From an uncultured Clostridium sp. (GTDB lineage: Bacteria > Bacillota > Clostridia > Lachnospirales > Lachnospiraceae): 10,991 bases of DNA. The position numbers were made by a program, and so were the translations under genes. The notes beneath the pieces are model-generated. The model was given only the letters and a program-made list of their open reading frames with translations, had not been told where the DNA came from and made no database searches. The stretch spans positions 1-10,991 of the forward strand of contig CATWBR010000114.1 of the NCBI GenBank assembly GCA_958349075.1, read 5' to 3'. The first letter of the stretch is position 1; the number at the start of each line of letters is the position of its first letter. This document shows positions 82 through 10,991 of the stretch, piece after piece.

Positions 82-816
82 ATGCAGTACAAATTAAGAG
101 ACATGTCATGGAGTGAGTTTGCAGAGAGAAGTAAAACAGCAAAAACAATTATTCTTCCATCCGGCGCCTGTGAGGTTTATGGCCCGCACAACCCCCTGGG
201 AGCAGATATACTGGTAGCAAAGAAGATGTCCGATATGCTGGCGGAGCGAGTAAACGGCATTGTGGGTCCATGCCTGGAGGTAGGCCAGTCCAAGAGCCTG
301 ACTTCCTTCCCCGGAACGATCGCAATATCGGGGGAAACCCTGAAGGCGGTATACAGCGAGATAATTGCGGAGTTTGTACGCCTCGGTTTTAAAAACTTCT
401 TCATTGTCAACAACCATCTTCACAACACACAGCCTTTAAACGAGGTTCTGGAAGATGCAAGAATCGGATTCGGAATCAAATACGCGCAGGTTGGCGTCTG
501 GCAGTACCTTCCGGCCTTATCGGATAAGCTGGGTATGTGGGAAACTCCGGCTCCGCACGGACATGCGAGCGAAGCACAGACATCCGTGCTGATGTACTTA
601 TTCCCGGAACTGGTGGATATGTCCAAGGCTCCAAACACGCCGAATATGTTTGACGACAGATGGCCGGCCATCATGAAGAGCGAACCGTACTGCAGCATGA
701 CCGACACAGGCACCCTCGGCAATGCCCAGGCTGCCACTCTTGAAAAAGGCAAAAAGGCGGTGGAGCTTATGCTCGACGAGATGGAAGACTGTGTAAACAA
801 TTATCTTGAGAAATAA
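82..816 (+). CDS. Creatininase-family metal-dependent amidohydrolase
   Basis: A 244-residue cytoplasmic protein, close to the usual family length. The family comprises metal-dependent hydrolases of cyclic amides and related C-N or C-C bonds (creatininase, FAPy deformylase ArfB, mycofactocin peptidase MftE, the inosose hydrolase IolN). Recognisable motifs are LPSGACEVYGPHNPLGAD (residues 26-42), the NNHLHN loop (110-115) corresponding to the usual NGHGGN, and HASEAQTS (161-168) corresponding to HAGExETS. By alignment from memory to creatininase ligands E34/H36/D45/H120/E122, the residues here are E31, Y33, D42, H112 and H114, so two metal-ligand positions differ. Y33 is, as far as I recall, seen in an EVYGPH subgroup; the reaction is therefore not predictable as creatinine hydrolysis. 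The start is set by AAAGGAG at 67-73, 8 nt before ATG. The TRAP dctP gene starts 26 nt downstream, so co-transcription is likely and its substrate is plausibly imported by that transporter. Confidence 0.88.
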   Translation: MQYKLRDMSWSEFAERSKTAKTIILPSGACEVYGPHNPLGADILVAKKMSDMLAERVNGIVGPCLEVGQSKSLTSFPGTIAISGETLKAVYSEIIAEFVRLGFKNFFIVNNHLHNTQPLNEVLEDARIGFGIKYAQVGVWQYLPALSDKLGMWETPAPHGHASEAQTSVLMYLFPELVDMSKAPNTPNMFDDRWPAIMKSEPYCSMTDTGTLGNAQAATLEKGKKAVELMLDEMEDCVNNYLEK

Positions 817-842
817 GGTAAAGTGACGGGGAAGGTGAAAAT

Positions 843-1910
843 ATGAAGAAAATAATATCTATCGCATTAACGGCAGCTTGTGTTACAAGTCTTTGCGCAT
901 GTGGAGGCAGAGGTTCCTCCGCGCCTGCATCGACAGCGGCTCCCCAGGCCGCTGCATCCGGCGAGTCTGCGGCAGCGGACGGTAAAAACTATGACAAGGT
1001 ATCTTTAAAACTAAGTTATGCAACAGGCGATACCGGTATGGACGGTCTTACCGCAATCGAGTTCGAGCGTCTTGTGGAAGAGAAAAGCGGGGGACAGGTA
1101 CAGATAGACCGTTTCCCGAACTGCCAGTTGAGCGGAGGGGACATGGTTCGCCATGTCGAGATGATGATATCCGGCGGCGCATTTGAACTTGCCATAATCA
1201 GTGAAAATTCATTCTCCGATGTAGATCAGACATTCCAGGTAACTTCCATACCGTTTACCTTTGCAGGTTATAACCAGGCCTGGGAAAAAGCCGACTCTAC
1301 CGGCGGCGAGTTCAGCAAGGGCCTCTTTGCAAAGCAGGGTGTCGTGTACTTAAGCACATTTCCGAACGGTATCATGCAGTTTGCCAACAACAAGCGCGAG
1401 CTTCATACTCCGGCGGATATGGTGAACTTAAAGATGCGTACCTACGGCGATCTTCAGATGTCCTTAATGCGTTCTCTCGGGGCGGATCCGACGCAGCTCA
1501 GTTGGTCCGAACTTTATTCCGCATTACAGACAGGCGCGGTGGACGGAAATATGAACGGCTACCAGACCCTGTATTCCGGTTCCATGCATGAAGTACAGCC
1601 GTACATCACCGAAGTTAACGCGACGCTTGGGCTTTACGATTTCCTTGCCAATCAGGCGGCGTGGGATAAGTTAAGCCCGGATGTCCAGACTCTTCTTCAG
1701 GAGTGCGCGACGGAAGCGGCTCTATGGGGCCGTGAGTATATGAGCAGGACCGAAGAAGAAGTGAAGAAGGAAATGATCGATTACGGCGTTAAAATCTATG
1801 TTCCCACAGAAGAAGAGTTAAAAGCTTTTAAGGACGGAGCTGCCCCGACCATCGAAGAATATAAGAAAATCGTCGGACCGGAAGCATGCGAAGCCTGGGG
1901 CGTAGAATAA
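843..1910 (+). CDS. dctP: TRAP transporter solute-binding lipoprotein DctP (system 1)
   Basis: The extracytoplasmic substrate-binding subunit of a tripartite ATP-independent periplasmic transporter, 355 residues. It has a lipoprotein signal peptide: basic KK at 2-3, a hydrophobic core, and lipobox LCAC with the lipidated Cys20. A low-complexity Ala/Ser/Pro linker (about 21-48) tethers the domain to the membrane. The DctP/TAXI-like fold signature lies around residues 190-240: TPADMVNLKMRT places the conserved carboxylate-binding Arg at R199, followed by LGADPTQLSWSELYSALQTGAVDG (helix and GxVDG motif). Loss of the usual ENP after DG (here NMN) and the C-terminal EEL-rich segment are ordinary variation. 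GGAAGGTG at 829-836 precedes the ATG. It is placed between the creatininase-family gene and dctQ (21-nt gap). Ligand unknown; Arg199 suggests a carboxylate-bearing compound. Confidence 0.93.
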   Translation: MKKIISIALTAACVTSLCACGGRGSSAPASTAAPQAAASGESAAADGKNYDKVSLKLSYATGDTGMDGLTAIEFERLVEEKSGGQVQIDRFPNCQLSGGDMVRHVEMMISGGAFELAIISENSFSDVDQTFQVTSIPFTFAGYNQAWEKADSTGGEFSKGLFAKQGVVYLSTFPNGIMQFANNKRELHTPADMVNLKMRTYGDLQMSLMRSLGADPTQLSWSELYSALQTGAVDGNMNGYQTLYSGSMHEVQPYITEVNATLGLYDFLANQAAWDKLSPDVQTLLQECATEAALWGREYMSRTEEEVKKEMIDYGVKIYVPTEEELKAFKDGAAPTIEEYKKIVGPEACEAWGVE

Positions 1911-1931
1911 AAAACGAGCGAAGGGGGCCCT

Positions 1932-2408
1932 ATGAAAAAACATTCAATCAGCATTGAATCAGTAATCGTTGCAGTTGTTATGCTTACGATGCTTACATTA
2001 GTGTTCCTGGGCGTTATTTCCAGATACGTACTCCATTTCTCTTTTTCCTTTACAGAAGAACTGGTCTGCGCGATGTTCGTCCTCCTGTCCACGGTGGGCG
2101 GCGCGCTGGCCAGTAAGGAGAACGGCCACTATACGCTGGATTTGATTACCGGGATGATGAAGCCGAAAATGAAAAAAATATTTTTAATCATAGATACGGC
2201 GCTTACCTGCGTTGCGGCTTCCGTGTTACTGTATACAGGAATTACGATGGTAAAAAGCCAGATGAAGATAGGCAGCCTGTCAATCGCCTTAAAGATCCCG
2301 AACTGGGTGTATGGCGCATTTGTGCCGTTAGGCCTGGCATTTATCCTGATCCGCAGTATTGAGTTCATTGTCAAGACATTTAAAAATACAGAGGAGGAAG
2401 AAAAATGA
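1932..2408 (+). CDS. dctQ: TRAP transporter small membrane subunit DctQ (system 1)
   Basis: A 158-residue integral membrane protein, typical for DctQ. Four hydrophobic segments are visible at about 11-33, 44-62, 83-104 and 124-146. Family landmarks are RYVLHFSFSFTEEL after the first helix, KENGHYTLDL near 62-71, and PNWVYGAFVPLGLAF before the fourth helix. The DctQ subunit forms a complex with the large DctM subunit and helps dock the substrate-loaded binding protein. The start follows AAGGGGG at 1921-1927 closely. Its 3' end overlaps the dctM start by 4 nt (ATGA), a sign of translational coupling. The acidic tail (EEEEK) is encoded by the same GAGGAGGAAG bases that serve as the ribosome binding site of dctM. 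Confidence 0.92.
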   Translation: MKKHSISIESVIVAVVMLTMLTLVFLGVISRYVLHFSFSFTEELVCAMFVLLSTVGGALASKENGHYTLDLITGMMKPKMKKIFLIIDTALTCVAASVLLYTGITMVKSQMKIGSLSIALKIPNWVYGAFVPLGLAFILIRSIEFIVKTFKNTEEEEK

Positions 2409-3691
2409 CAGCCGTAACCATGCTTTTGGTATTTTCCCTCTGCGTTATCATCGGCGCGCCGATTGGAACGGCCATGTGCCTTTCCAGCGTCGCCGCCCTT
2501 CTGACATCCGGAATGGGGCTCTCCATGGTTCCATTCAACTATTATGCGTCTATCAGCAAATTCCTGCTTCTTGCCATTCCGTTTTTTATTCTGGCCGGAA
2601 ATATCATGGAAAAAGCGGGGATTTCCACCAAGTTAATCAAATTTGCCCAGTCCTTTGTGGGGCATATTAACGGTGGGCTGGCTCTGGTGTGTGTGTTGGT
2701 AGCCTGTTTCTTTGCCGCCATTTCGGGTTCCGGCCCGGCTACGGTGGCAGCTCTCGGCGGAATTATTATTCCGGCCATGACAGCCGTAGGTTATTCAAAA
2801 GGTGATGCATCGGCCCTAATGGCTACGGCCGGAGGAATCGGAATCATCATACCGCCGTCGATTTCCTTCGTCGTTTACAGCTCCATAGCAAACGTATCGG
2901 TCGGAACTCTGTTCATGGCAGGAATTGTTCCGGGACTGCTCATGGGATTCTCTCTGTTTGCGGCATCCATGTGGGTGACGCGCAAGAGCAGGCTGCTGCG
3001 CGCGCCGAAAGCCAGTGCGGCAGAGCGGTGGGCGGCGTTTAAGGATGCGTTCTGGGGATTGATGATGCCTGTTATCATCCTGGGAGGAATTTATGGGGGG
3101 ATTTTCACACCGACAGAGGCGGCCGCTGTTGCCGCGGTCTACGGACTCTTAGTGGGCATGTTCATTTACAGGACGCTGCGAGTGAAAGAATTACTGGCAA
3201 TCGTTGTGGATTCCGGCAAGCAGACCGGCGCGGTCATGTGGACGGTCGGTAATGCGGCGCTGATGAGCTGGGTATTATCGGTTTCCGGCATTTCCAACGC
3301 GCTGTCTGATTTTGTCGTTCAGATTTCAGGCGGCCATACTTTTATTTTCCTGATTGTTGTAAACATTGTGATTCTGATTGCAGGATGCTTTATTGACGGA
3401 AACTCCATCATGTATATCTTTGTTCCAATTTTCCTGCCGGTTGCATTACAGCTCGGCTATAACCCGATTGTTCTCGGCGTTGTGCTGGTTATGAACGTTG
3501 CCATTGGCATGGTTACTCCGCCGGTTGGCTGTAACCTGTATGTGGCCTGCGGAGTCTCGGGAATTCAGGTGAAGGATATTGTAAAACCGGTTGTCCCGTA
3601 CATAGTTGCCAGTGTAATTACTCTTTTATTAGTAACGTATATTCCGCAGATTGCGCTCTTCCTGCCAAGAATTCTGGGACAAATCAGTTAG
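2405..3691 (+). CDS. dctM: TRAP transporter large permease subunit DctM (system 1)
   Basis: A 428-residue polytopic membrane protein that forms the ion-coupled translocation pathway; full length for DctM. Hydrophobic segments cover nearly the whole chain. Family motifs in order: PFFILAGNIMEKAGIS (59-74), SGSGPATVAALGGIIIPAM (107-125), the first-repeat IIIPPSISFVVYSSIANVSVG (147-167), FTPTEAAAVAAVYGL (234-248), and the second-repeat MVTPPVGCNLYVACG (369-383). The two PP-containing loops correspond to the inverted repeats of the elevator-type ion transporter superfamily. GAGGAGG at 2391-2397 supports the ATG at 2405, which overlaps dctQ by 4 nt. No terminator was seen in the 78 nt before the next gene, so it probably continues into the amidase gene. 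Confidence 0.95.
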   Translation: MTAVTMLLVFSLCVIIGAPIGTAMCLSSVAALLTSGMGLSMVPFNYYASISKFLLLAIPFFILAGNIMEKAGISTKLIKFAQSFVGHINGGLALVCVLVACFFAAISGSGPATVAALGGIIIPAMTAVGYSKGDASALMATAGGIGIIIPPSISFVVYSSIANVSVGTLFMAGIVPGLLMGFSLFAASMWVTRKSRLLRAPKASAAERWAAFKDAFWGLMMPVIILGGIYGGIFTPTEAAAVAAVYGLLVGMFIYRTLRVKELLAIVVDSGKQTGAVMWTVGNAALMSWVLSVSGISNALSDFVVQISGGHTFIFLIVVNIVILIAGCFIDGNSIMYIFVPIFLPVALQLGYNPIVLGVVLVMNVAIGMVTPPVGCNLYVACGVSGIQVKDIVKPVVPYIVASVITLLLVTYIPQIALFLPRILGQIS

Positions 3692-3769
3692 AGCGTGTTT
3701 GAAGCAGGCGGGCCGCAGTTAAGAACAGCTATCTATAACAGTTAACGTGTATTTGAAAGGTGAGAATCT

Positions 3770-4582
3770 ATGAAAAGTAAATTTGTTTTAGCTCAGCTTG
3801 AGCAGAAGGGACTGCCGGAAGAAAACCTGGCAAAAGCCAAGAAAGCGGTTGCCACGGCAAAAGAGCTTTATCAGCCGGATATGATGATATTTCCCGAATG
3901 TTTTATGAGCCATTTTCCAATGGGGACCGAGCGCGCCGTCTGCCTTGGGACGGCACAGACCCTGGATGGGCCGTTTGTAACAGAGATGAGAAAACTTGCC
4001 AAAGACAACGGACTCTGGATTATCTTCGGCATGAACGAGAAAGTGGAGGATCCGGAGGATGACCGCAATTATAACTGTACGGTAGTGATCGACAGCGAGG
4101 GCGGGATTGCATCCACTTACCGGAAAACACACCTTTATGATGCGTTCGGCTATAAGGAGTCGGATGACAACAAACCGGGGGACAAGTTCTTTGAGCCGAT
4201 TGACACCCCATTCGGTAGAATTGGCCTCTTCGTGTGTTATGAGGTCCGGTTCCCCGAGGTTGCCCGCTATCAGCGTTCTAAAGGCGCGGATATCATCATT
4301 ATGCCTACCGCATGGGTGCCGGGGCCGTTAAAGAGCGCCCAGTTCCGGACTCTAATCTCCGCGCGGGCGATTGAGAACACCGTTTATATGGTGGCCTGTG
4401 ATCAGGTCGGCGCAAACGGAATGGGAGAGAGCGTTGTGGTTGATCCGATGGGCGTTGTGGTTGCAAGCGCCGGTGAGGTGGAGACTTTGTTTTGCGCCGA
4501 GATTGATTCGGAGCGCATAGAGCAGGTAAGGGCAAAATTGCCGGCTTATAAGGATCGCCGCCCGGAACTTTATACAATCTGA
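3770..4582 (+). CDS. Carbon-nitrogen hydrolase (nitrilase superfamily) amidase
   Basis: A 270-residue cytoplasmic enzyme of the nitrilase superfamily, which hydrolyses non-peptide C-N bonds (amides, ureido compounds, nitriles) through a Glu-Lys-Cys triad. All three are present in canonical context: E43 in MIFPECFMS, K119 in TYRKTHLYD, and C156 in GLFVCYEVRFPEVAR. The glycine-rich VDPMGVVVASAG near 224-234 and the closing EIDSERIEQVRAKLP segment are also typical, as are the later QFRTLISARAIEN residues. The overall pattern resembles omega-amidase/Nit2-like and carbamoylase-like branches more than true nitrilases, but the substrate cannot be fixed. GAAAGGTGAG at about 3756-3765 gives a suitable ribosome binding site for the ATG. 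It is the last gene of the first operon, 78 nt after dctM and 28 nt before a strong terminator stem. With the creatininase-family protein it suggests stepwise opening and deamidation of an imported amide or lactam (inference). Confidence 0.92.
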   Translation: MKSKFVLAQLEQKGLPEENLAKAKKAVATAKELYQPDMMIFPECFMSHFPMGTERAVCLGTAQTLDGPFVTEMRKLAKDNGLWIIFGMNEKVEDPEDDRNYNCTVVIDSEGGIASTYRKTHLYDAFGYKESDDNKPGDKFFEPIDTPFGRIGLFVCYEVRFPEVARYQRSKGADIIIMPTAWVPGPLKSAQFRTLISARAIENTVYMVACDQVGANGMGESVVVDPMGVVVASAGEVETLFCAEIDSERIEQVRAKLPAYKDRRPELYTI

Positions 4583-4610
4583 TTGATAAACAGTTGGTTA
4601 TACAAAAGGA

Positions 4611-4647
4611 AGGTGCTTCTGATTATCGGGAAGCACCTCTTTTCTTT
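4611..4647 (+). terminator. Rho-independent terminator of operon 1
   Basis: AGGTGCTTC (4611-4619) pairs perfectly with GAAGCACCT (4630-4638), a 9-bp stem with a 10-nt loop, followed by CTTTTCTTT (4639-4647). It lies 28 nt after the amidase stop codon and is correctly placed to end the first operon. Confidence 0.9.
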
Positions 4648-4666
4648 AACAGGAAGCATTCTGTTA

Positions 4667-4739
4667 GAAAAAACGCTTTGCTAAAGAAAACCGCTCTGTT
4701 AAGGAAAACTGCTCTGTTAAGGAAAACCACTCCGCGGAG
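4667..4739. repeat. Degenerate 18-bp tandem repeat
   Basis: Four head-to-tail units are visible: 4667-4685 (19 nt, diverged), 4686-4703 and 4704-4721 (differing at one base: GAAAACCGCTCTGTTAAG versus GAAAACTGCTCTGTTAAG), and 4722-4739 (diverged at its 3' half, ending GCGGAG). A partial copy of the CTGTTAG end precedes them at 4661-4667. Units lie directly after the terminator of operon 1 and contain no open gene. There are no unique spacers, so this is not CRISPR. Function unknown; replication slippage is the simplest origin. Confidence 0.75.
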
Positions 4740-4787
4740 GATGTGCACTGCGTGCTAAGGCAGTTTTATTCTATCCGAAATGGGATG

Positions 4788-4851
4788 AAAAAGAAAAAAG
4801 CATCGGGTCAAATTCAGTTTTTGCAAATGAATTTGGCCCGTTTTCTTTTTT
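4788..4851. terminator. Second, probably bidirectional terminator
   Basis: CGGGTCAAATTCA (4804-4816) pairs with TGAATTTGGCCCG (4828-4840): 13 bp with one G-U wobble and an 11-nt loop. A T-tract (4841-4851) follows on the + strand and an A-rich tract (4788-4799) precedes it, giving a U-tract for - strand transcripts as well. On the + strand it would back up the terminator at 4611. No minus-strand gene converging on it was found within the window. Confidence 0.85.
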
Positions 4852-5017
4852 GTAACCGTCACACTACCTGCTATTGGTCTGACATTACTATATAGTGATT
4901 AGTGGATTCATCAAAGGGAAAATGGAAGTTTAAGGAAATTAGCAGTATACGTGCCTGATAAATTAGGAATTATCAACAAAACGGGGCTTGAAAACGGCAA
5001 AATCCTGTAAGTAATGC

Positions 5018-5046
5018 TTGACAAAGGGAATACCATGGTTTATTCT
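5018..5046 (+). promoter_or_regulatory. Sigma-A-type promoter for operon 2
   Basis: A perfect -35 box TTGACA (5018-5023) is followed after 17 nt by TATTCT (5041-5046), matching four of six -10 consensus positions. An alternative TATACT at 5046-5051 matches better but lies at an unfavourable 22-nt spacing. Initiation would be expected near 5053, leaving a leader of about 210 nt before dctP of system 2. It is the only good promoter candidate I see between the two terminators and the second operon. Confidence 0.65.
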
Positions 5047-5058
5047 ATACTCATGAGA

Positions 5059-5074
5059 TAATCAATAATGATTA
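5059..5074. promoter_or_regulatory. Operator-like palindrome at transcription start
   Basis: TAATCA (5059-5064), a 4-nt ATAA spacer and TGATTA (5069-5074) form a perfect 6+6 inverted repeat immediately downstream of the -10 element, where a bound repressor would block initiation or clearance. The word TGATTAGTG overlapping its right arm (5069-5077) also occurs at 4896-4904, next to the palindrome ACTATATAGT (4887-4896). No regulator gene is in the window, so the binding protein is unknown. AT-rich palindromes also arise by chance. Confidence 0.4.
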
Positions 5075-5158
5075 GTGTTTAATCTAAAGAGATTTACAAT
5101 GTGGCAAAAGAGGAGAAAAGGGGGCTCCGGACAACAAGTTTAAAGGGAAAAGGCGATT

Positions 5159-5190
5159 AATGTTCCTGACGGATGCTTAGCCGGAACATT
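5159..5190 (+). promoter_or_regulatory. Leader hairpin upstream of second dctP
   Basis: AATGTTCC (5159-5166) pairs with GGAACATT (5183-5190), an 8-bp perfect stem with a 16-nt loop, inside the leader of operon 2. It is not followed by a U-tract, so it is not an intrinsic terminator. The sequence AAAGRCGATTAATG appears at its 5' edge (5149-5162) and again at 5219-5232 shortly before the ribosome binding site. I recognise no known riboswitch class. Confidence 0.4.
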
Positions 5191-5265
5191 CAAAATGATG
5201 AATTAGAAACGATGGATCAAAGACGATTAATGCAGGAGACGAGGGTATATTAAGGAGGTTACTTT

Positions 5266-6312
5266 ATGAAGAAACAAGTGTTGGCATGTGTAATGGCAGT
5301 ATCTATGATCGTTCTTTCAGCCTGTGGCGGAAGCGGTTCCGGAGGGACGGCAACGGCAGCAGGCGGCTCCGGAGGGGCATCGGCAGAACAGAGTTCCGGT
5401 GACAGCTATAAAATCCGTGTTGCCCATGTAACGGGAACCGGTTCTCCCTATGATTACGGAGCAAATAAGTTCAAGGAACTGGTGGAGGCAGGAAGCGGCG
5501 GCCGCGTCACCGTGGAAGTATTTGCAGGAGACATGACGACCGACGACGTTGAGGGTGTGGAGATGACGCAGAACGGTAACCTGGAGGTTATGTGGGCGTC
5601 CACCGGAGCCCTGAGCGGGTATGTGTCCGACCTGGGCGTTATCCAGCTCCCATTCCTTTTTGACTCACCTGAGACTGTTGAGAAGGCCCTGACCGGCGAA
5701 TTCGGCCAGACGATCCTGAAAGAGGTTGATCAGGTGGACGGTATCCTGGGACTTGCATTCCACGAGGACGGATGGAGAAATATCCTGACAAAGGGCGTTA
5801 CCATCAACAGTGTTGCAGACATGAAGGGCGTCCGCATGAGAAGTATGACAAATGAGGTATGTGTGGCTATGTATGAGGCGCTCGGCGCCACTCCGATTTC
5901 CCTGTCATCCGGTGAAATCTTCACCAGTATCCAGAACGGCGTGGTAGACGGCCAGGACAACAGCGTACTTTATGCTAAGGCCGACGGATACATTGAAGCA
6001 ATCGACAATATCTGTGATATCCATCATTTCTATACAAGCGGACTGATTGTTGCAAACCAGAAATGGTTTGAGGCACTTAGCGCAGAGGATCAGGAGCTGA
6101 TCCGCAAATCCGCGGAGGAAGCCGGTGCTGCACAGAGGGCATGGTTCCTGCAGGCAGACGAAGAATTGATTGCCGAGTATGAGGCAAAAGGCTACACCGT
6201 AACCCGCCCCGACGATCTGGATGCATGGAGGGAAGCGGTCCAGCCTGTATATGACAAGATGTATAAGCAGTATCCGGAATGGGAAAAGCTTGTCAACATG
6301 ATTCAGCAATAG
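5266..6312 (+). CDS. dctP: TRAP transporter solute-binding lipoprotein DctP (system 2)
   Basis: A 348-residue extracellular lipoprotein that captures the substrate for the second TRAP importer. Its signal peptide ends in lipobox LSAC with lipidated Cys20, then a Gly/Ser-rich linker (about 21-46). DctP-family landmarks are the first strand YKIRVAHVTG (48-57), GWRNILTKG (169-177), and VADMKGVRMRSM with the likely carboxylate-clamping Arg at R192. LGATPISLSSGEIFTSIQNGVVDG follows at 206-229, leading into QDNS where many relatives have xENP. It is clearly diverged from DctP of system 1, so the two importers probably differ in ligand. TAAGGAGG at 5251-5258, 7 nt ahead of ATG, is a near-perfect ribosome binding site. 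It is the first gene of the second operon, behind the promoter at 5018-5046. Confidence 0.95.
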   Translation: MKKQVLACVMAVSMIVLSACGGSGSGGTATAAGGSGGASAEQSSGDSYKIRVAHVTGTGSPYDYGANKFKELVEAGSGGRVTVEVFAGDMTTDDVEGVEMTQNGNLEVMWASTGALSGYVSDLGVIQLPFLFDSPETVEKALTGEFGQTILKEVDQVDGILGLAFHEDGWRNILTKGVTINSVADMKGVRMRSMTNEVCVAMYEALGATPISLSSGEIFTSIQNGVVDGQDNSVLYAKADGYIEAIDNICDIHHFYTSGLIVANQKWFEALSAEDQELIRKSAEEAGAAQRAWFLQADEELIAEYEAKGYTVTRPDDLDAWREAVQPVYDKMYKQYPEWEKLVNMIQQ

Positions 6313-6354
6313 GCGCCGCTTTGATGCGGAGACAGATAGAGTGGGTGAGAGAAT

Positions 6355-6888
6355 ATGGAAAATTTAATTATACGTCTTAGGAAGATTGGCGATGTAATCA
6401 ATACCGTAACAAGGGCTGTACTGGGCGTTTTCAGCCTGGCTCTCTGTTTTGCGGTCATCGGCCAGTTTGTACTTCGCTGGGTGGGATTATCCATGAGCTG
6501 GGCCAGTGATTTTTCCTGTTACATGTTTATATGGACGACGATGCTGGGCAGCGCTGTTGCCAGCCGTCATCTCCTGCACATCGGAGTGGATATTATTATC
6601 AACTGCTTTCACGACAGGATTAAGAAGGCCATTGTGATTCTGGCAGACGTGGTCCTTTTGGTGGCGCTCGTTCTGTTCATCATTTCCGGCGCACAGTATA
6701 CACTGGGGCAGATATCCCATATGGGAACAACGGTAAAGGTATCTCTGTCAATATTCTATGTATCACTTCCGGTCTGCGGTGTGATTATGGCATATTATAC
6801 ATTCGTCCAGTTGTTAGAAACTATTTACTACGGGGAAGCTGTAAAGCTTCCTCTGCCCGGAGATGAAGAGGAGGCGGCAGATGAGTAG
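6355..6888 (+). CDS. dctQ: TRAP transporter small membrane subunit DctQ (system 2)
   Basis: A 177-residue membrane protein with four hydrophobic segments at about 21-43, 52-70, 92-113 and 129-150, the DctQ topology. Landmarks are the RWVGLSMSWASDF stretch after helix one, the SRHLLHIGVDI segment at 70-80 equivalent to the usual xGHxxxDL, and SLSIFYVSLPVCGVIMAYY before and in helix four. The C-terminus is acidic (GDEEEAADE). The ribosome binding site GGGTGAGAG is weaker than that of its neighbours. It lies 42 nt after dctP and its end overlaps dctM by 8 nt. Role: partner of DctM in the membrane complex. Confidence 0.92.
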   Translation: MENLIIRLRKIGDVINTVTRAVLGVFSLALCFAVIGQFVLRWVGLSMSWASDFSCYMFIWTTMLGSAVASRHLLHIGVDIIINCFHDRIKKAIVILADVVLLVALVLFIISGAQYTLGQISHMGTTVKVSLSIFYVSLPVCGVIMAYYTFVQLLETIYYGEAVKLPLPGDEEEAADE

Positions 6889-8164
6889 CATTATTTTATT
6901 TGGCAGTTTCTTTCTGTTTCTGGCTGCAGGAGTTCCGATTGCGTTTGTACTTGTCATTGCAACGGTTTCCTATGCACTTTTCAGCACAGGCGATGCGAAT
7001 CTCGCACTTGTGCCACAGAGAATTATATATGGCGTCAACAGCTTTACAATGCTGTGTCTGCCGTTCTTCGTGCTGGCTGGAAACATTATGAACCACGGCG
7101 GCATTACGATGCGCCTGGTGCGCATGGCACAGTCATTTATCGGACATATCCGCGGCGGGCTCGGCATGGTGGATGTATTGGTATGTATGATGTTCGGTAC
7201 GATTTCCGGATCTGCGGTCGCAGGAACCGCCGCGGTGGGTTCCCTGATGATTCCGGCGATGAAAGAAGAGGGTTATGAACCGGCTTTTGCGGCCGGACTG
7301 ACTTCCGTTGCCTCTACCTGCGCGCCGATTATCCCGCCCAGCCTGGCATTTGTCATTTACGGCGCGGCGGCCAAGGTCTCTGTCGGAGATATGTTTATAG
7401 CCGGTGTTGTGCCGGGCATTCTGATGGGTCTTATCATGATAATGCTTGTGTACGTTTTTGCGCTGAAAAAGAATTTTAAGAAGCTCCCGAAAGCAACCTG
7501 GAAGGAGAGGGGACAGGCTACGGTCAATGCCCTGCCCTGCCTTGGACTTCCTCTGATTGTAGTCGGCGGCATCATGTTCGGCTGGTTTACGCCCACCGAG
7601 GCGGCGGCAGCGGCGGTGTTATACTCCCTGTTCCTCTCCTGTGTCGTATATAAGAGCGTGACACGGAAAACACTCTGGAAAGCCCTGATCGACAGCGCGA
7701 TTGACAGCGGCACGGTAATGCTGATTGTAGGCGGCTGTTACCTGTTCGGCTGGGTTATTTCAAATGAGCGCTGGGCCGTTAAACTGACCGAAGCGCTGGT
7801 GGTGATGAACGCGCCTCTGAGCGTAAAACTGATTCTAATTAATGTGGCTCTGCTAGTTGTGGGTATGTTTATGGACAGCTCACCGGCCATTATGCTGGTG
7901 GCGCCGATCCTGGCTCCCGCCATGCAGGGACTGGGGATTTCCCCCATCCAGACGGGTATGATCGTCTGCATGAACCTGGTAATCGGCCTGAGCACACCTC
8001 CTGTGGGTGTGTGCCTGTATTCCGCAACGAATATTGCCAAGTGCAAGTTCGGGGATACGGTAAAAGCGGCGATTCCGTTTACGATAGCGTCTCTGGTGGC
8101 CCTGGCGCTTGTCACGTTTATTCCGGCTATTTCGCAGATTCCGTTTATCCTGATGGGCCGATAG
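6881..8164 (+). CDS. dctM: TRAP transporter large permease subunit DctM (system 2)
   Basis: A 427-residue permease forming the ion-coupled channel of system 2. DctM motifs in order: PFFVLAGNIMNHGGIT (61-76), SGSAVAGTAAVGSLMIPAM (109-127), the IIPPSLAFVIYGAAAKVSVGD region (150-170), FTPTEAAAAAVLYSL (236-250), and LSTPPVGVCLYSATN (370-384). The start at 6881 was chosen over an in-frame ATG at 6863 because AGGAGG (6869-6874) lies 6 nt before 6881, and the chosen start gives the usual DctM N-terminus beginning at the first membrane segment. The 8-nt overlap with dctQ implies coupled translation. It is followed by a 117-nt spacer with hairpins but no terminator. Confidence 0.95.
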   Translation: MSSIILFGSFFLFLAAGVPIAFVLVIATVSYALFSTGDANLALVPQRIIYGVNSFTMLCLPFFVLAGNIMNHGGITMRLVRMAQSFIGHIRGGLGMVDVLVCMMFGTISGSAVAGTAAVGSLMIPAMKEEGYEPAFAAGLTSVASTCAPIIPPSLAFVIYGAAAKVSVGDMFIAGVVPGILMGLIMIMLVYVFALKKNFKKLPKATWKERGQATVNALPCLGLPLIVVGGIMFGWFTPTEAAAAAVLYSLFLSCVVYKSVTRKTLWKALIDSAIDSGTVMLIVGGCYLFGWVISNERWAVKLTEALVVMNAPLSVKLILINVALLVVGMFMDSSPAIMLVAPILAPAMQGLGISPIQTGMIVCMNLVIGLSTPPVGVCLYSATNIAKCKFGDTVKAAIPFTIASLVALALVTFIPAISQIPFILMGR

Positions 8165-8186
8165 GGCTGCATCGCGGGATGAAAAA

Positions 8187-8247
8187 CGGGATATAAGAAT
8201 CCCGGGCTGTGCTGTGCAAAATGGTAATTGCACCGCTTTTGTGCAGC
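8187..8247 (+). promoter_or_regulatory. Two intercistronic hairpins before the racemase gene
   Basis: CGGGAT (8187-8192) pairs with ATCCCG (8199-8204). GCTGTGCAAAA (8211-8221) pairs with TTTTGTGCAGC (8237-8247) over 11 positions including two G-U pairs. A shorter alternative TGCAA/TTGCA pairing competes with the second stem. Neither has a downstream U-tract, so they are not obvious terminators. They may be processing or mRNA-stability elements setting different expression of transporter and enzyme; they could also be incidental. Confidence 0.35.
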
Positions 8248-8281
8248 GACGGAAAAAGAGATGAATCAGGAGGATTAAGAT

Positions 8282-9292
8282 ATGTTAATAGAACAGATGA
8301 TTAATGTCATCGACGCCCACACGACCGGCACGCCGATCCGTATTGTCACCAGTGGAATTCCAACATTATACGGTAAAAGCGTCAGCGAAAAGATGGATTA
8401 TATGCGTACCCATTACGATCACTTAAGAACCTGCATTATGCAGCAGCCGCGTGGATTTACCTCCCTTGTGGGGGCAATCCTGACCGAACCGGTGGCTCAG
8501 GAAGCTGATTACGGGCTGTTTTATATAGACGATCTGACTTATCAGCCGATGTGCGGTGCCGGGACACTGGCCGTGGCCAAGTCCCTGGTTGCAACGGGGA
8601 TGGTGCCCGTAAAGGAGCCGGAGACGGAAGTGGTGCTTGAGACTCCGACCGGTATTGTGCGGGTGACGGTTGAGGTGAAGGAGGGAAATGCCGGTAAGGT
8701 ATCCCTCAGAAATGTTCCGGCTTTCCTGTATAAAAAGGATTTGGAACTGAATGTCCCGGGCATCGGAGAATTCACCGTAGATATCGGATACGGAGGCAAT
8801 TTTTTCGTGCTGGTTGATATTGACAGGATACATGATGAAATCCGGAAAGAACGGATATCAGACCTGCGTGCGCTGAGCCGCGTAATCCTGAAGGAGGCCA
8901 ATGCCAAAATCCAGGTGGTGCATCCGGTTAACCCGGCAATTAATTACCTGGATCAGCTTTTATACTACAGCACGAAAGCGGAGGAGGACGGCAGTTACAG
9001 GGCACAGTGTATTTTCGGCGATGCCCAGGCGGATATTTCCCCTTGCGGCACCGGCACATCCACCCGCCTTGCGCAGAAATTCTTCCGCGGAGAGATCGGC
9101 CTGAACGAATTATTCCGTCAGAGAAGCGTATGCGGCGGAACCTTTGAGGGACGCCTGGCTGAGACTGCAATGGCGGGAGAATTAAATGCCGTAATTCCGG
9201 TTGTGTCATGCGAAGACGTGCATATTACAGGTTTTAATCAGTTGGTTGTGGAACGTGACGATAAGCTGAAGAACGGTTTTATAAGCTGGTAG
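8282..9292 (+). CDS. Proline racemase / hydroxyproline epimerase-family protein
   Basis: A 336-residue cytoplasmic protein of the proline racemase superfamily (proline racemase, 4-hydroxyproline 2-epimerase, trans-3-hydroxyproline dehydratase), close to the usual length. The N-terminus carries DAHTTGTPIRIVTSGIP (11-27) and YDHLRTCIMQQPRG (45-58). Two catalytic-type cysteines are visible: C91 in PMCGAGT and C255 in DISPCGTGTS. The substrate-amine aspartate preceding the second is D251, and the GYGGNFF segment is at 169-175. Having both Cys points to a racemase/epimerase rather than the dehydratase branch, where the second Cys is replaced by Thr. Odd: the nearly invariant His after the first CysGly (MCGH) is A93 here, and HTxGE is HTTGT, so the substrate may not be proline itself. 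AGGAGG (8268-8273) lies 8 nt before ATG. It sits between dctM and the dehydrogenase in operon 2. Confidence 0.9.
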   Translation: MLIEQMINVIDAHTTGTPIRIVTSGIPTLYGKSVSEKMDYMRTHYDHLRTCIMQQPRGFTSLVGAILTEPVAQEADYGLFYIDDLTYQPMCGAGTLAVAKSLVATGMVPVKEPETEVVLETPTGIVRVTVEVKEGNAGKVSLRNVPAFLYKKDLELNVPGIGEFTVDIGYGGNFFVLVDIDRIHDEIRKERISDLRALSRVILKEANAKIQVVHPVNPAINYLDQLLYYSTKAEEDGSYRAQCIFGDAQADISPCGTGTSTRLAQKFFRGEIGLNELFRQRSVCGGTFEGRLAETAMAGELNAVIPVVSCEDVHITGFNQLVVERDDKLKNGFISW

Positions 9293-9385
9293 GCGGCGGA
9301 TACAGGCTGGTATCAGTGGCCGTCCGGCGATGATGTATTCCGAACTTATTGTGCAGCACCGGAAACATGAAAAGGAGAGAATGAG

Positions 9386-10555
9386 ATGTTTTTAGTAGAT
9401 ACATATACACCAACCAGGGTTTTGTTCGGCCCGGGAAGATTAAAGGAATTGGCAGGCGTGAAACTGCCCGGAAAGAAGGCCCTGATCTGTGTTACAGAGG
9501 ACGGGCTGATGGAAAAATTGGGAATCCAGGACAAGGTTCTCGCACTGCTGAAGGAAAATAATACGGAGGCCGTTGTATTTGATAAAGTAAAACCAAATCC
9601 AACGAAGTCGGGCGTTATGGCGGCGGCGGCTCTGGCAAAAGAGACGGGCTGTGATTTCCTGATTGGCCTTGGCGGAGGAAGCAGCGTGGATACGGCAAAG
9701 GCCGCAGCCATCATGATGGCCAATCCCGGGGATCTCTGGGACTATGCCGGTACGGGCACCGGCGGCAGGAAGGAAGTGAACGCGGCGGCGCCGATCGTCA
9801 CGATTTCAACAACATCCGGCACCGGCACGGAGACGGATCCATATTGTGTAGTTACCAATGAGGATACGAATGAGAAACTGGATTTCGCGCTGGATGCAAT
9901 CTTTCCGGTTCTTTCAATTATCGATCCGGAATTAATGAAGACTCTGCCCCACAGCCTGACTTTGTATCAGGGCTTCGATGCACTGTTCCATGTTGCGGAA
10001 TGCTTTATTTCCAATGAGCATGAGAACCGTCTTCTGGATGTTTACTCCCAGGAGGCCGTGCAGGTGGTAGGGCAGTGGCTTCCGGTAGTATCCGGCGACG
10101 GAGAGAATATGGAAGCGCGTACCTGGATGGCCTATGCCGCCGATATTCTGGGCGGGTACACCCAGGCAATTGTAAATACTACCTCCCACCATATTATTGC
10201 ACAGACAATCGGAGGGCTGTTTCCAAAGGTTACACACGGACTGTCCCTGCTGTTTATTGCCGAGGCGTATTACGGCAAGGTAAAAGAACTTCGCCCGGAG
10301 CTTCTGGACGAACTCGGAACTTTTCTGGGAATCGCCGCCGATCCGGAGGAACCGGGAGCCGGATTTGTTAAAGGCCTGGTGGAACTGATGGAGAAAACCG
10401 GAATGAGAAATACGGCAATGTCGGAGTACGGGATTACCCCGGACGATTTCCAGAAGATCGCCGACATTACCGTTGACAATACCGGTATAGAATGGGAAAA
10501 ATATGCTCTTTCCAAGGAAGATATTATTGAGATATTAGAAAAGAGCTACCGTTAA
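9386..10555 (+). CDS. Iron-containing (group III) alcohol dehydrogenase
   Basis: A 389-residue cytoplasmic NAD(P)-dependent oxidoreductase interconverting alcohols and aldehydes/ketones. The N-terminal nucleotide-binding half has the signature GLGGGSSVDTAKA (94-106) and STTSGTGTETD (141-151). The C-terminal metal domain has D198 and H202 in GFDALFHVAE, H269 in SHHIIAQTIGG and H284 in KVTHGLS, matching the Asp-His-His-His iron/zinc ligand set. The position equivalent to the second conserved His of HxxxH in FucO-type enzymes is Q273, a departure seen in some branches as far as I can recall. The start is fixed by AAAGGAG (9371-9377) 8 nt before ATG. It is 93 nt after the racemase-family gene and is the last protein gene of operon 2. 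Substrate unknown; it may reduce or oxidise a product of the imported compound. Confidence 0.94.
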   Translation: MFLVDTYTPTRVLFGPGRLKELAGVKLPGKKALICVTEDGLMEKLGIQDKVLALLKENNTEAVVFDKVKPNPTKSGVMAAAALAKETGCDFLIGLGGGSSVDTAKAAAIMMANPGDLWDYAGTGTGGRKEVNAAAPIVTISTTSGTGTETDPYCVVTNEDTNEKLDFALDAIFPVLSIIDPELMKTLPHSLTLYQGFDALFHVAECFISNEHENRLLDVYSQEAVQVVGQWLPVVSGDGENMEARTWMAYAADILGGYTQAIVNTTSHHIIAQTIGGLFPKVTHGLSLLFIAEAYYGKVKELRPELLDELGTFLGIAADPEEPGAGFVKGLVELMEKTGMRNTAMSEYGITPDDFQKIADITVDNTGIEWEKYALSKEDIIEILEKSYR

Positions 10556-10576
10556 ATAAGGATTTAATTGAGATGC

Positions 10577-10942
10577 GAGGACGCCTCTGTAAGACGGCGG
10601 ACGGGGTAGTGGGAGGTTGGATATGAGTCTTCAGTCCCGGTTTATAGTTTGTGGTGAGGGGAATCCAGGAGAAAAAATTCCTACAGGGACTCGCTTCCGC
10701 TTGTGGAGCGCACAGCGGATGCTAAGACGTCAAAGAACGCCGTCTAAGCACCGGCGGGCTCCAAGGTCCCCTTCGGAAAGTTTTCTCCTTCCTTCCCCGA
10801 GCAGGTTGTCGACGGGACTGAAGACTCAGCGAAGGTTATTGCCCCGTCCGCCGGCTTCAGAGGCTGATTGTCTCTTTCGTCAAGTGCGGAGGGAGGTCTT
10901 GTCGCGGTCACTATGTTGTCGTGAACCTTTTACCTCGAGGTA
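10577..10942 (+). ncRNA. HEARO-like RNA (IscB/IsrB omega-RNA class), apparently stand-alone
   Basis: A long nested fold is directly visible. The outer stem pairs 10583-10606 with 10842-10864 (7 bp GCCTCTG/CAGAGGC, a small bulge, then 12 bp CGGCGGACGGGG/CCCCGTCCGCCG). The next is a perfect 16-bp stem, 10624-10639 with 10813-10828. Inside are GGGGAA 10658-10663 with 10793-10798, GGAGAAAA 10668-10675 with 10781-10788, and GGGAC 10686-10690 with GTCCC 10766-10770. A multi-hairpin core holds CGCT(T)CC/GGAGCG (10692-10710), GCACAGCGGATGC (10710-10722), AGACG/CGTCT (10725-10745) and TAAGC (10745-10749). That core arrangement matches what I remember of omega-RNAs from IscB systems and of the HEARO motif (HNH endonuclease-associated RNA and ORF). 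Such RNAs guide the transposon-encoded nuclease using sequence at their 5' end. No HNH/RuvC gene is embedded or visible after it. A hairpin at 10906-10927 and palindrome TACCTCGAGGTA (10931-10942) follow; exact ends are uncertain. A 117-codon frame through it looks spurious. Confidence 0.75.
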
Positions 10943-10991
10943 TTTCGGGTTGGATTCAGAGATAATATAAAGCAAACTTTTAAGATTAATT

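Follow-up and report, generated by a model that had tools for sequence, protein, structure and literature searches.

A dispersed palindromic repeat with a conserved GNRA-bearing core, probably MITE-like, in Lachnospiraceae-type Clostridia

The bcr1 repeat of the Bacillus cereus group is 167 bp long and occurs in 31 copies in B. anthracis, and its mobile-element character is given in the title of a paper cited by the same source (available text of PMC2267715). REP and BIME repeats are dispersed palindromes of 20-40 bp, mostly between genes and tagged GTAG or CGTC, and those of the GTAG type are often found near RAYT genes (available text of PMC3733652). They are reported there from other phyla, and no words beginning with clostridi or firmicutes occur in the text (PMC3733652). 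In sponge mitochondria, repetitive hairpin-forming elements are described as invading intergenic regions (available text of PMC2800124). HEARO (omega) RNAs are structured, tied to mobile elements and located 5' of their nuclease gene, with the Rfam model RF02033 matching 65% of HEARO-nuclease 5' UTRs (available text of PMC9755519).

The locus considered here lies near the 3' end of a stretch of 10,991 nt (the window) from an uncultured Clostridium sp. of the Lachnospiraceae. It is probably a copy of a dispersed, non-autonomous, palindromic MITE-like mobile element of Lachnospiraceae-type Clostridia; the window copy is assigned to this family through homology of its core, with the evidence for mobility coming from its relatives. 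In kind, the element is a palindromic MITE-like repeat, as are bcr1 or the REPs as far as the available texts describe them (PMC2267715; PMC3733652). Like bcr1, it is a dispersed stem-loop repeat with mobile-element character, and the two are alike in size and copy number (available text of PMC2267715), but its hosts are different and, by description, it stands out by a common GNRA-bearing centre and strongly diverging arms. With MITEs it has in common that it is short, gene-less and multi-copy, and that one subfamily, in genome G004, carries terminal inverted repeats (TIRs) and target duplications; however, the centre and not the ends is common to genomes, and no partner insertion sequence was seen by eye at 13 loci with the ends of that subfamily. 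The likeness to REP/BIME repeats lies in dispersed palindromes mostly between genes (PMC3733652), and that to the sponge mitochondrial elements, likened by description and belonging to an organelle of unrelated hosts, in hairpin repeats that invade intergenic regions (PMC2800124). Unlike HEARO RNAs, the family is palindromic, lacks a covariance-model match and has TIRs in one subfamily, and no IscB domain was found in nine genomes by a weak test. Compared with known repeats, it is unusual in combining unstable arms and ends with a centre that is conserved, covaries and bears a GNRA-type loop. A supposed orphan guide RNA is replaced by a repeat family without Rfam 15 match, for which there are now covariance models, a large number of copies, a single empty site and exact ends in one subfamily. 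This raises the question of why a three-way junction that covaries and bears a GNRA-type loop persists at the tip while palindrome arms and ends turn over, and it carries a warning that nested stems and covariation can stem from mobile DNA and need not mark a non-coding RNA gene.

A structured stretch without a plausible protein had been reported at 10577-10942 in an earlier note on this DNA. The structure is real: the minimum free energy (MFE) of 10556-10991 was -186.8 kcal/mol, compared with -144.15 (sd 5.89) in shuffles, and none of 100 shuffles was equally stable. The paired span is somewhat narrower than had been noted, since local folding of the window gave a nested palindrome of 282 nt with 103 pairs, whose parts are as follows.

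10583-10864, no strand assigned: whole nested palindromic element as folded (local fold; z -7.24; ends approximate)
10591-10606, no strand assigned: outer arm, 5' side, partner 10842-10857 (inverted repeat I3, 94% complementary)
10842-10857, no strand assigned: outer arm, 3' side, partner 10591-10606 (inverted repeat I3)
10624-10639, no strand assigned: perfect 16-bp arm, 5' side, partner 10813-10828 (inverted repeat I2, 100% complementary)
10813-10828, no strand assigned: perfect 16-bp arm, 3' side, partner 10624-10639 (inverted repeat I2)
10556-10666, plus strand: 5' arm region, 72% match to a core-less repeat of genome G024 (loci L021/L025)
10862-10916, plus strand: stretch at and past the 3' palindrome edge, 78% similar to one adjoining the G024 repeat

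The nested stems described earlier are thus confirmed as a perfect 16-bp helix (I2) and as 12 consecutive perfect pairs inside the outer arm (I3), which is 16 nt long and has one mismatch. Searching the whole 11-kb window for inverted repeats with arms of at least 14 nt, up to 300 apart, also gave the arm pair 10658-10690/10766-10798, which is 76% complementary; the three remaining inverted repeats, with 81% pairs, are located outside the palindrome. The palindrome starts 28 bases past the stop codon of the gene for an iron-type alcohol dehydrogenase (9386-10555), the best relative of which is 44% identical. Across the palindrome, the sole open reading frame (ORF) of at least 80 aa, one of 117 aa at 10617-10970, had no Pfam match, in agreement with what had been noted; the window copy is short and without coding capacity by Pfam on its ORF, and the family is multi-copy in relatives. 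No match to 10556-10991 was obtained by blastn against plasmids and phages, and five exact core patterns, one of them with a misread base, gave 0 matches each against viral contigs. Among 116 relatives of G024, five match the window region at E 0.01, the best being G024 itself. The window stretch 10862-10916 resembles a stretch of L025 that adjoins the core-less G024 repeat, the two matches being on opposite strands.

The tip common to copies is about 110 nt long and has the shape of a three-way junction, in which a paired arm meets a mini-hairpin of 2 bp and an apical hairpin whose internal mismatch is conserved. A covariance model (R2) was built from 11 sequences with the window left out, because circularity was to be avoided, and it matches the window once, with 52.9 bits and E 1.2e-11, as the sole match up to E 1. 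R2 was written for the plus strand and its match in the window was reported on that strand, with the GNRA-type loop on the minus strand.

10677-10789, no strand assigned: conserved family core, three-way junction with apical hairpin (R2 match)
10693-10700, minus strand: two-base-pair mini-hairpin GC-GGAA-GC with GNRA-type loop (read in the sequence; minus-strand MFE)
10716-10753, no strand assigned: apical hairpin with its loop and a conserved region of internal mismatch, TAAG on either side (alignment, R2)

Core statistics were taken from 102 matches in 83 sources (99 distinct sequences), the sources having nearly all been picked for holding a core. Both sides change in 18 of 19 pairs (15.1 in shuffles, 2/500 of which reach that number), 96.7% of cells are paired (71.7% in shuffles, 25.0-38.5% in slid alignments), and the covariation score is 0.676, compared with 0.211 in shuffles. 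Further pair types numbered 48, no more than in shuffles (47.3; 249/500). The covariation is strong, yet it is not independent proof, because related sequences were used and their alignment had been fitted to the structure. As for a lack of compensatory changes in homologues, which had been considered as an outcome in the earlier note, the opposite was found, with core stems that covary, as in a structured family other than HEARO; compensatory changes are present in them and are weaker in the arms. The mini-hairpin loop is of GNRA type on the minus strand in 93/99 sequences (GAAA 50, GAGA 26, GGAA 8, GCAA 7, GGGA 2) and never on the plus strand; the window has GGAA. When folded by itself, the core of the window reached -44.8 on the minus strand (z -2.44, 4/200 shuffles as good) and -39.6 on the plus strand (z -1.69, 7/200), and the mini-hairpin was formed in the MFE of both strands, while it was absent from the MFE of the L113 and L095 cores on the corresponding strands. 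Some DNA mini-hairpins with GNRA-type loops are also very stable, so the core may act as RNA or as single-stranded DNA. It is conceivable, though rather doubtful, that the tip, with its junction and GNRA-type mini-hairpin, serves as a recognition module for a putative factor that would read it in folded form, as RNA or single-stranded DNA. Many different palindromes would carry this module, and it would drive their spread, for instance by directing them to hairpin loops. If true, mobile structured elements of this class would be defined by their centre rather than their ends.

Relatives were searched for at several levels. By blastn, matches at E 0.001 were found in 5 of 397 genomes of the family to which the Lachnospiraceae MAG G001 (the genome of locus L009) belongs. 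With a covariance model (R1) of eight aligned core sequences, the window among them, and at most 150 candidates scored in each of seven genomes, 35 copies were counted in G275, 31 in G363, 24 in G004 (the genome of locus L007, a Lachnospira MAG), 14 in G212 and 3 weak ones in G269, with none in G003 or G024; R1 also had no match in loci L026 and L027. At class level, 11/391 genomes match at E 1e-5 under strict filters with 9 candidates scored per genome, and at phylum level the second model matched 4/398 genomes, all four known before. No Rfam 15 family was matched by the window or its relatives in these searches, and no recognised description of the repeat family was met in the literature searched, a partial search, so that prior publication is possible. 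Hairpins of L020 and L024, both in G269, share innermost letters of the TAAGACGTCAAAA type and have different arms; they are possibly a distant branch.

Around the core, 29 of 33 folded matches, taken from the 102, form long palindromes that are paired for the most part and measure 136-363 nt, the largest of them taking in neighbouring sequence. The four other folds do not resolve in this way: L106, L139 and L140 are short, and one copy of L125 has a different pairing. From one subfamily or locus to another the arms differ, yet mostly pair; they are seemingly unrelated among G212 copies and common within subfamilies among those of G275 or G004. In 14 comparisons between orthologues, with sequences partly common to several of them, core pairs were the same in 337 cases, kept with a change on one side in 3, kept with changes on both sides in 18, broken in 26 and gapped in 2. 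The corresponding numbers for arm pairs were 364, 41, 37, 129 and 20. Arm pairs are often broken between orthologues, and arm compensation was therefore dropped as proof of selection.

Ends were defined in G004, where 11 similar aligned copies of 193-250 bp carry the common TIRs CTCAAACTTCGCACA, altered in L139 and L145. With up to two mismatches, the end pattern gave 65 matches in this genome, compared with 3 for a reversed control. With ends located by pattern and a trim of at most two bases in test and control alike, flanking direct repeats of length at least 6 were present in 6/11 copies (lengths 7, 10, 8, 6, 7 and 7), compared with 3/110 mismatched flank pairs (all of length 6). These target duplications are short and AT-rich. 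Ends and duplications are known from this one G004 subfamily, in which 5/11 copies have no duplication of length at least 6, and two of the six that have one, L142 and L144, have flanks that are palindromic and AT-rich, in which direct repeats arise easily. An occupied and an empty site were found at one locus, occupied in G212 and empty in its sister genome G619 and nine more genomes: G619 joins positions 4-752 of the query directly to 936-1699, with flanks 92-94% identical, which corresponds to a gain of 183 bp in G212, and at this locus R1 detected no core in G619 or the nine further relatives. Besides the palindrome, the gained stretch contains about 40 AT-rich bases, and it shows no clear duplication. 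At several further sites both G212 and G619 carry a copy, and movement is therefore slow there. No transposase with matching ends was seen by eye in the ORFs of 13 loci, out of 30 loci listed for the 65 end matches in G004. Short G004 palindromes with the same ends were considered as core-empty sites and rejected, L233 and L251 being read as internal deletion derivatives; L258 and L261 are further short palindromes with the same ends and without core. The core-bearing copies of L142, L144 and L145 each sit centrally within a second palindromic repeat, whose ends resemble TTGCGAAAC/GTTTCGCAA, and appear to have been inserted there.

It can be proposed that such elements, which carry no gene, would therefore be moved by a transposase coded elsewhere, leaving duplications of roughly 7-8 bp. 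Insertions would sometimes land in existing palindromes and so build nested stems like those of the window, and the window copy would have arisen by the same route. The core would be kept through recognition in a folded single-stranded form, RNA or DNA, with the GNRA side on the minus strand.

The earlier reading, in which a stand-alone HEARO or omega RNA serves as a guide for an IscB/IsrB nuclease in trans, draws on nested structure, mobile relatives and the lack of a gene inside, and the core letters then quoted are present in the window. As a HEARO motif, however, this core is not borne out: RF02033, used without a positive control, had no match in 10540-10991 on both strands up to E 10, in the whole window up to E 1 (Rfam release 15), in 10 relative loci up to E 1 (the full core being present in five, a shortened one in two and matches to the arms alone in three), or in 20 core-holding loci at gathering score. 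In the scan of these 20 loci, one lysine riboswitch was found, elsewhere in L069. Weak Rfam matches to sR28, mir-8303, IRES_KSHV, mir-548 and KCNQ1OT1_1 were far below gathering scores and were set aside. Since RF02033 reaches just 65% of HEARO 5' UTRs (available text of PMC9755519), a missing match alone is not absolute. RRXRR, the IscB N-terminal domain, was found in 0/9 genomes by a search that is weak because no control genome gave a match either. The case against HEARO is carried by the positive identification as a repeat family, rather than by the RF02033 miss, and the relatives carry TIRs and target duplications; a gene-less, non-autonomous, mobile family stands, on the target duplications and the occupied and empty site of relatives, whereas the HEARO identity does not and is scarcely credible. 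Dispersed palindromes would also be expected of REP/REPIN-type elements moved by a Y1 tyrosine transposase (RAYT), and Y1 genes are present in G212, G619 and G831. However, Y1_Tnp was not found in the copy-bearing genomes G275, G363, G004, G065 and G185, whose assemblies may be incomplete, no core was found in six Y1 loci (two of G212, one of G619 and three of the 11 in G831), and the elements are far longer than REPs of 20-40 bp. Overall, Y1 was found in 3/8 copy-bearing genomes and in 2/6 genomes without match at class level, with the same reservation about assemblies. Target duplications, as seen in the G004 subfamily, are not an expected product of Y1 transposition, and this route is unlikely.

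If the element were instead a cis-acting RNA feature selected in place, such as a terminator, attenuator or mRNA-end stabiliser, the persistence of several copies at the same sites in G212 and G619 would be accounted for, and so would copies that extend terminator-like hairpins in an intergenic region between genes that, by their protein sequences, are taken to be pnp and prfC. There, 15 of 25 loci were readable across, 7 with the element and 8 without (R1 negative). In two groups the element extends a GC-rich base stem that is not the same in both and is terminator-like by eye; one of the two stems is present in G839 as a short hairpin without core, which could be a deletion remnant. A terminator scan found this G839 hairpin on one strand, but with no excess over shuffles, the counts in L173 being 3 vs 3.2 in shuffles; it found none around the L092 element. 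At least six T in the nine bases after the hairpin were counted in 4/92 copies, and the converse, with A ahead of the hairpin, in 7/92, with the arms of 21/92 copies unresolved and the window span shortened to 141. Moreover, copies lie mostly between genes with no orientation bias: according to a crude ORF caller applied to 91 of the 102 matches, both flanking ORFs are on the strand of the core in 34 and on the opposite strand in 31, with 13 divergent, 7 convergent and 6 other contexts or positions inside a called ORF. The 11 matches dropped were the window, L028, two cut at contig ends, L083 and six in the overlapping L077/L086. A general terminator role is not borne out by these T tracts and scans, and selection in place as a cis-acting feature is improbable. 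Finally, the folding might be a by-product of palindromic DNA, with arms complementary through template-switch repair and cores alike by recent ancestry. Palindromes are prone to template-switch correction and the arms change fast between orthologues, but the core covaries across genomes and keeps unpaired features, namely the GNRA-type loop on one strand in 93/99 sequences, the internal mismatch and a 7-nt loop, which correction would erase; a pure by-product is very unlikely.

Other repeats were noticed beside these copies and in the window. In G826, the pnp-prfC intergenic region (L164) contains a different hairpin repeat with GGCGAGCGAAGCGAGAGC-like letters in four tandem copies, and this repeat also occurs in L155, L162 and L173. 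At 4671-4735 of the window, imperfect tandem copies of a GCTCTGTTAAGGAAAAC-like unit lie within an intergenic region of 683 bases. Upstream of the palindrome, 82-10555 is a catabolic cluster that comprises a creatininase-type amidohydrolase, transporter genes, a carbon-nitrogen hydrolase, a member of the proline racemase family and the iron-type alcohol dehydrogenase. Among the transporter genes, that at 1932-2408 is of DctQ type by Pfam, and the others are TRAP-like components by eye.
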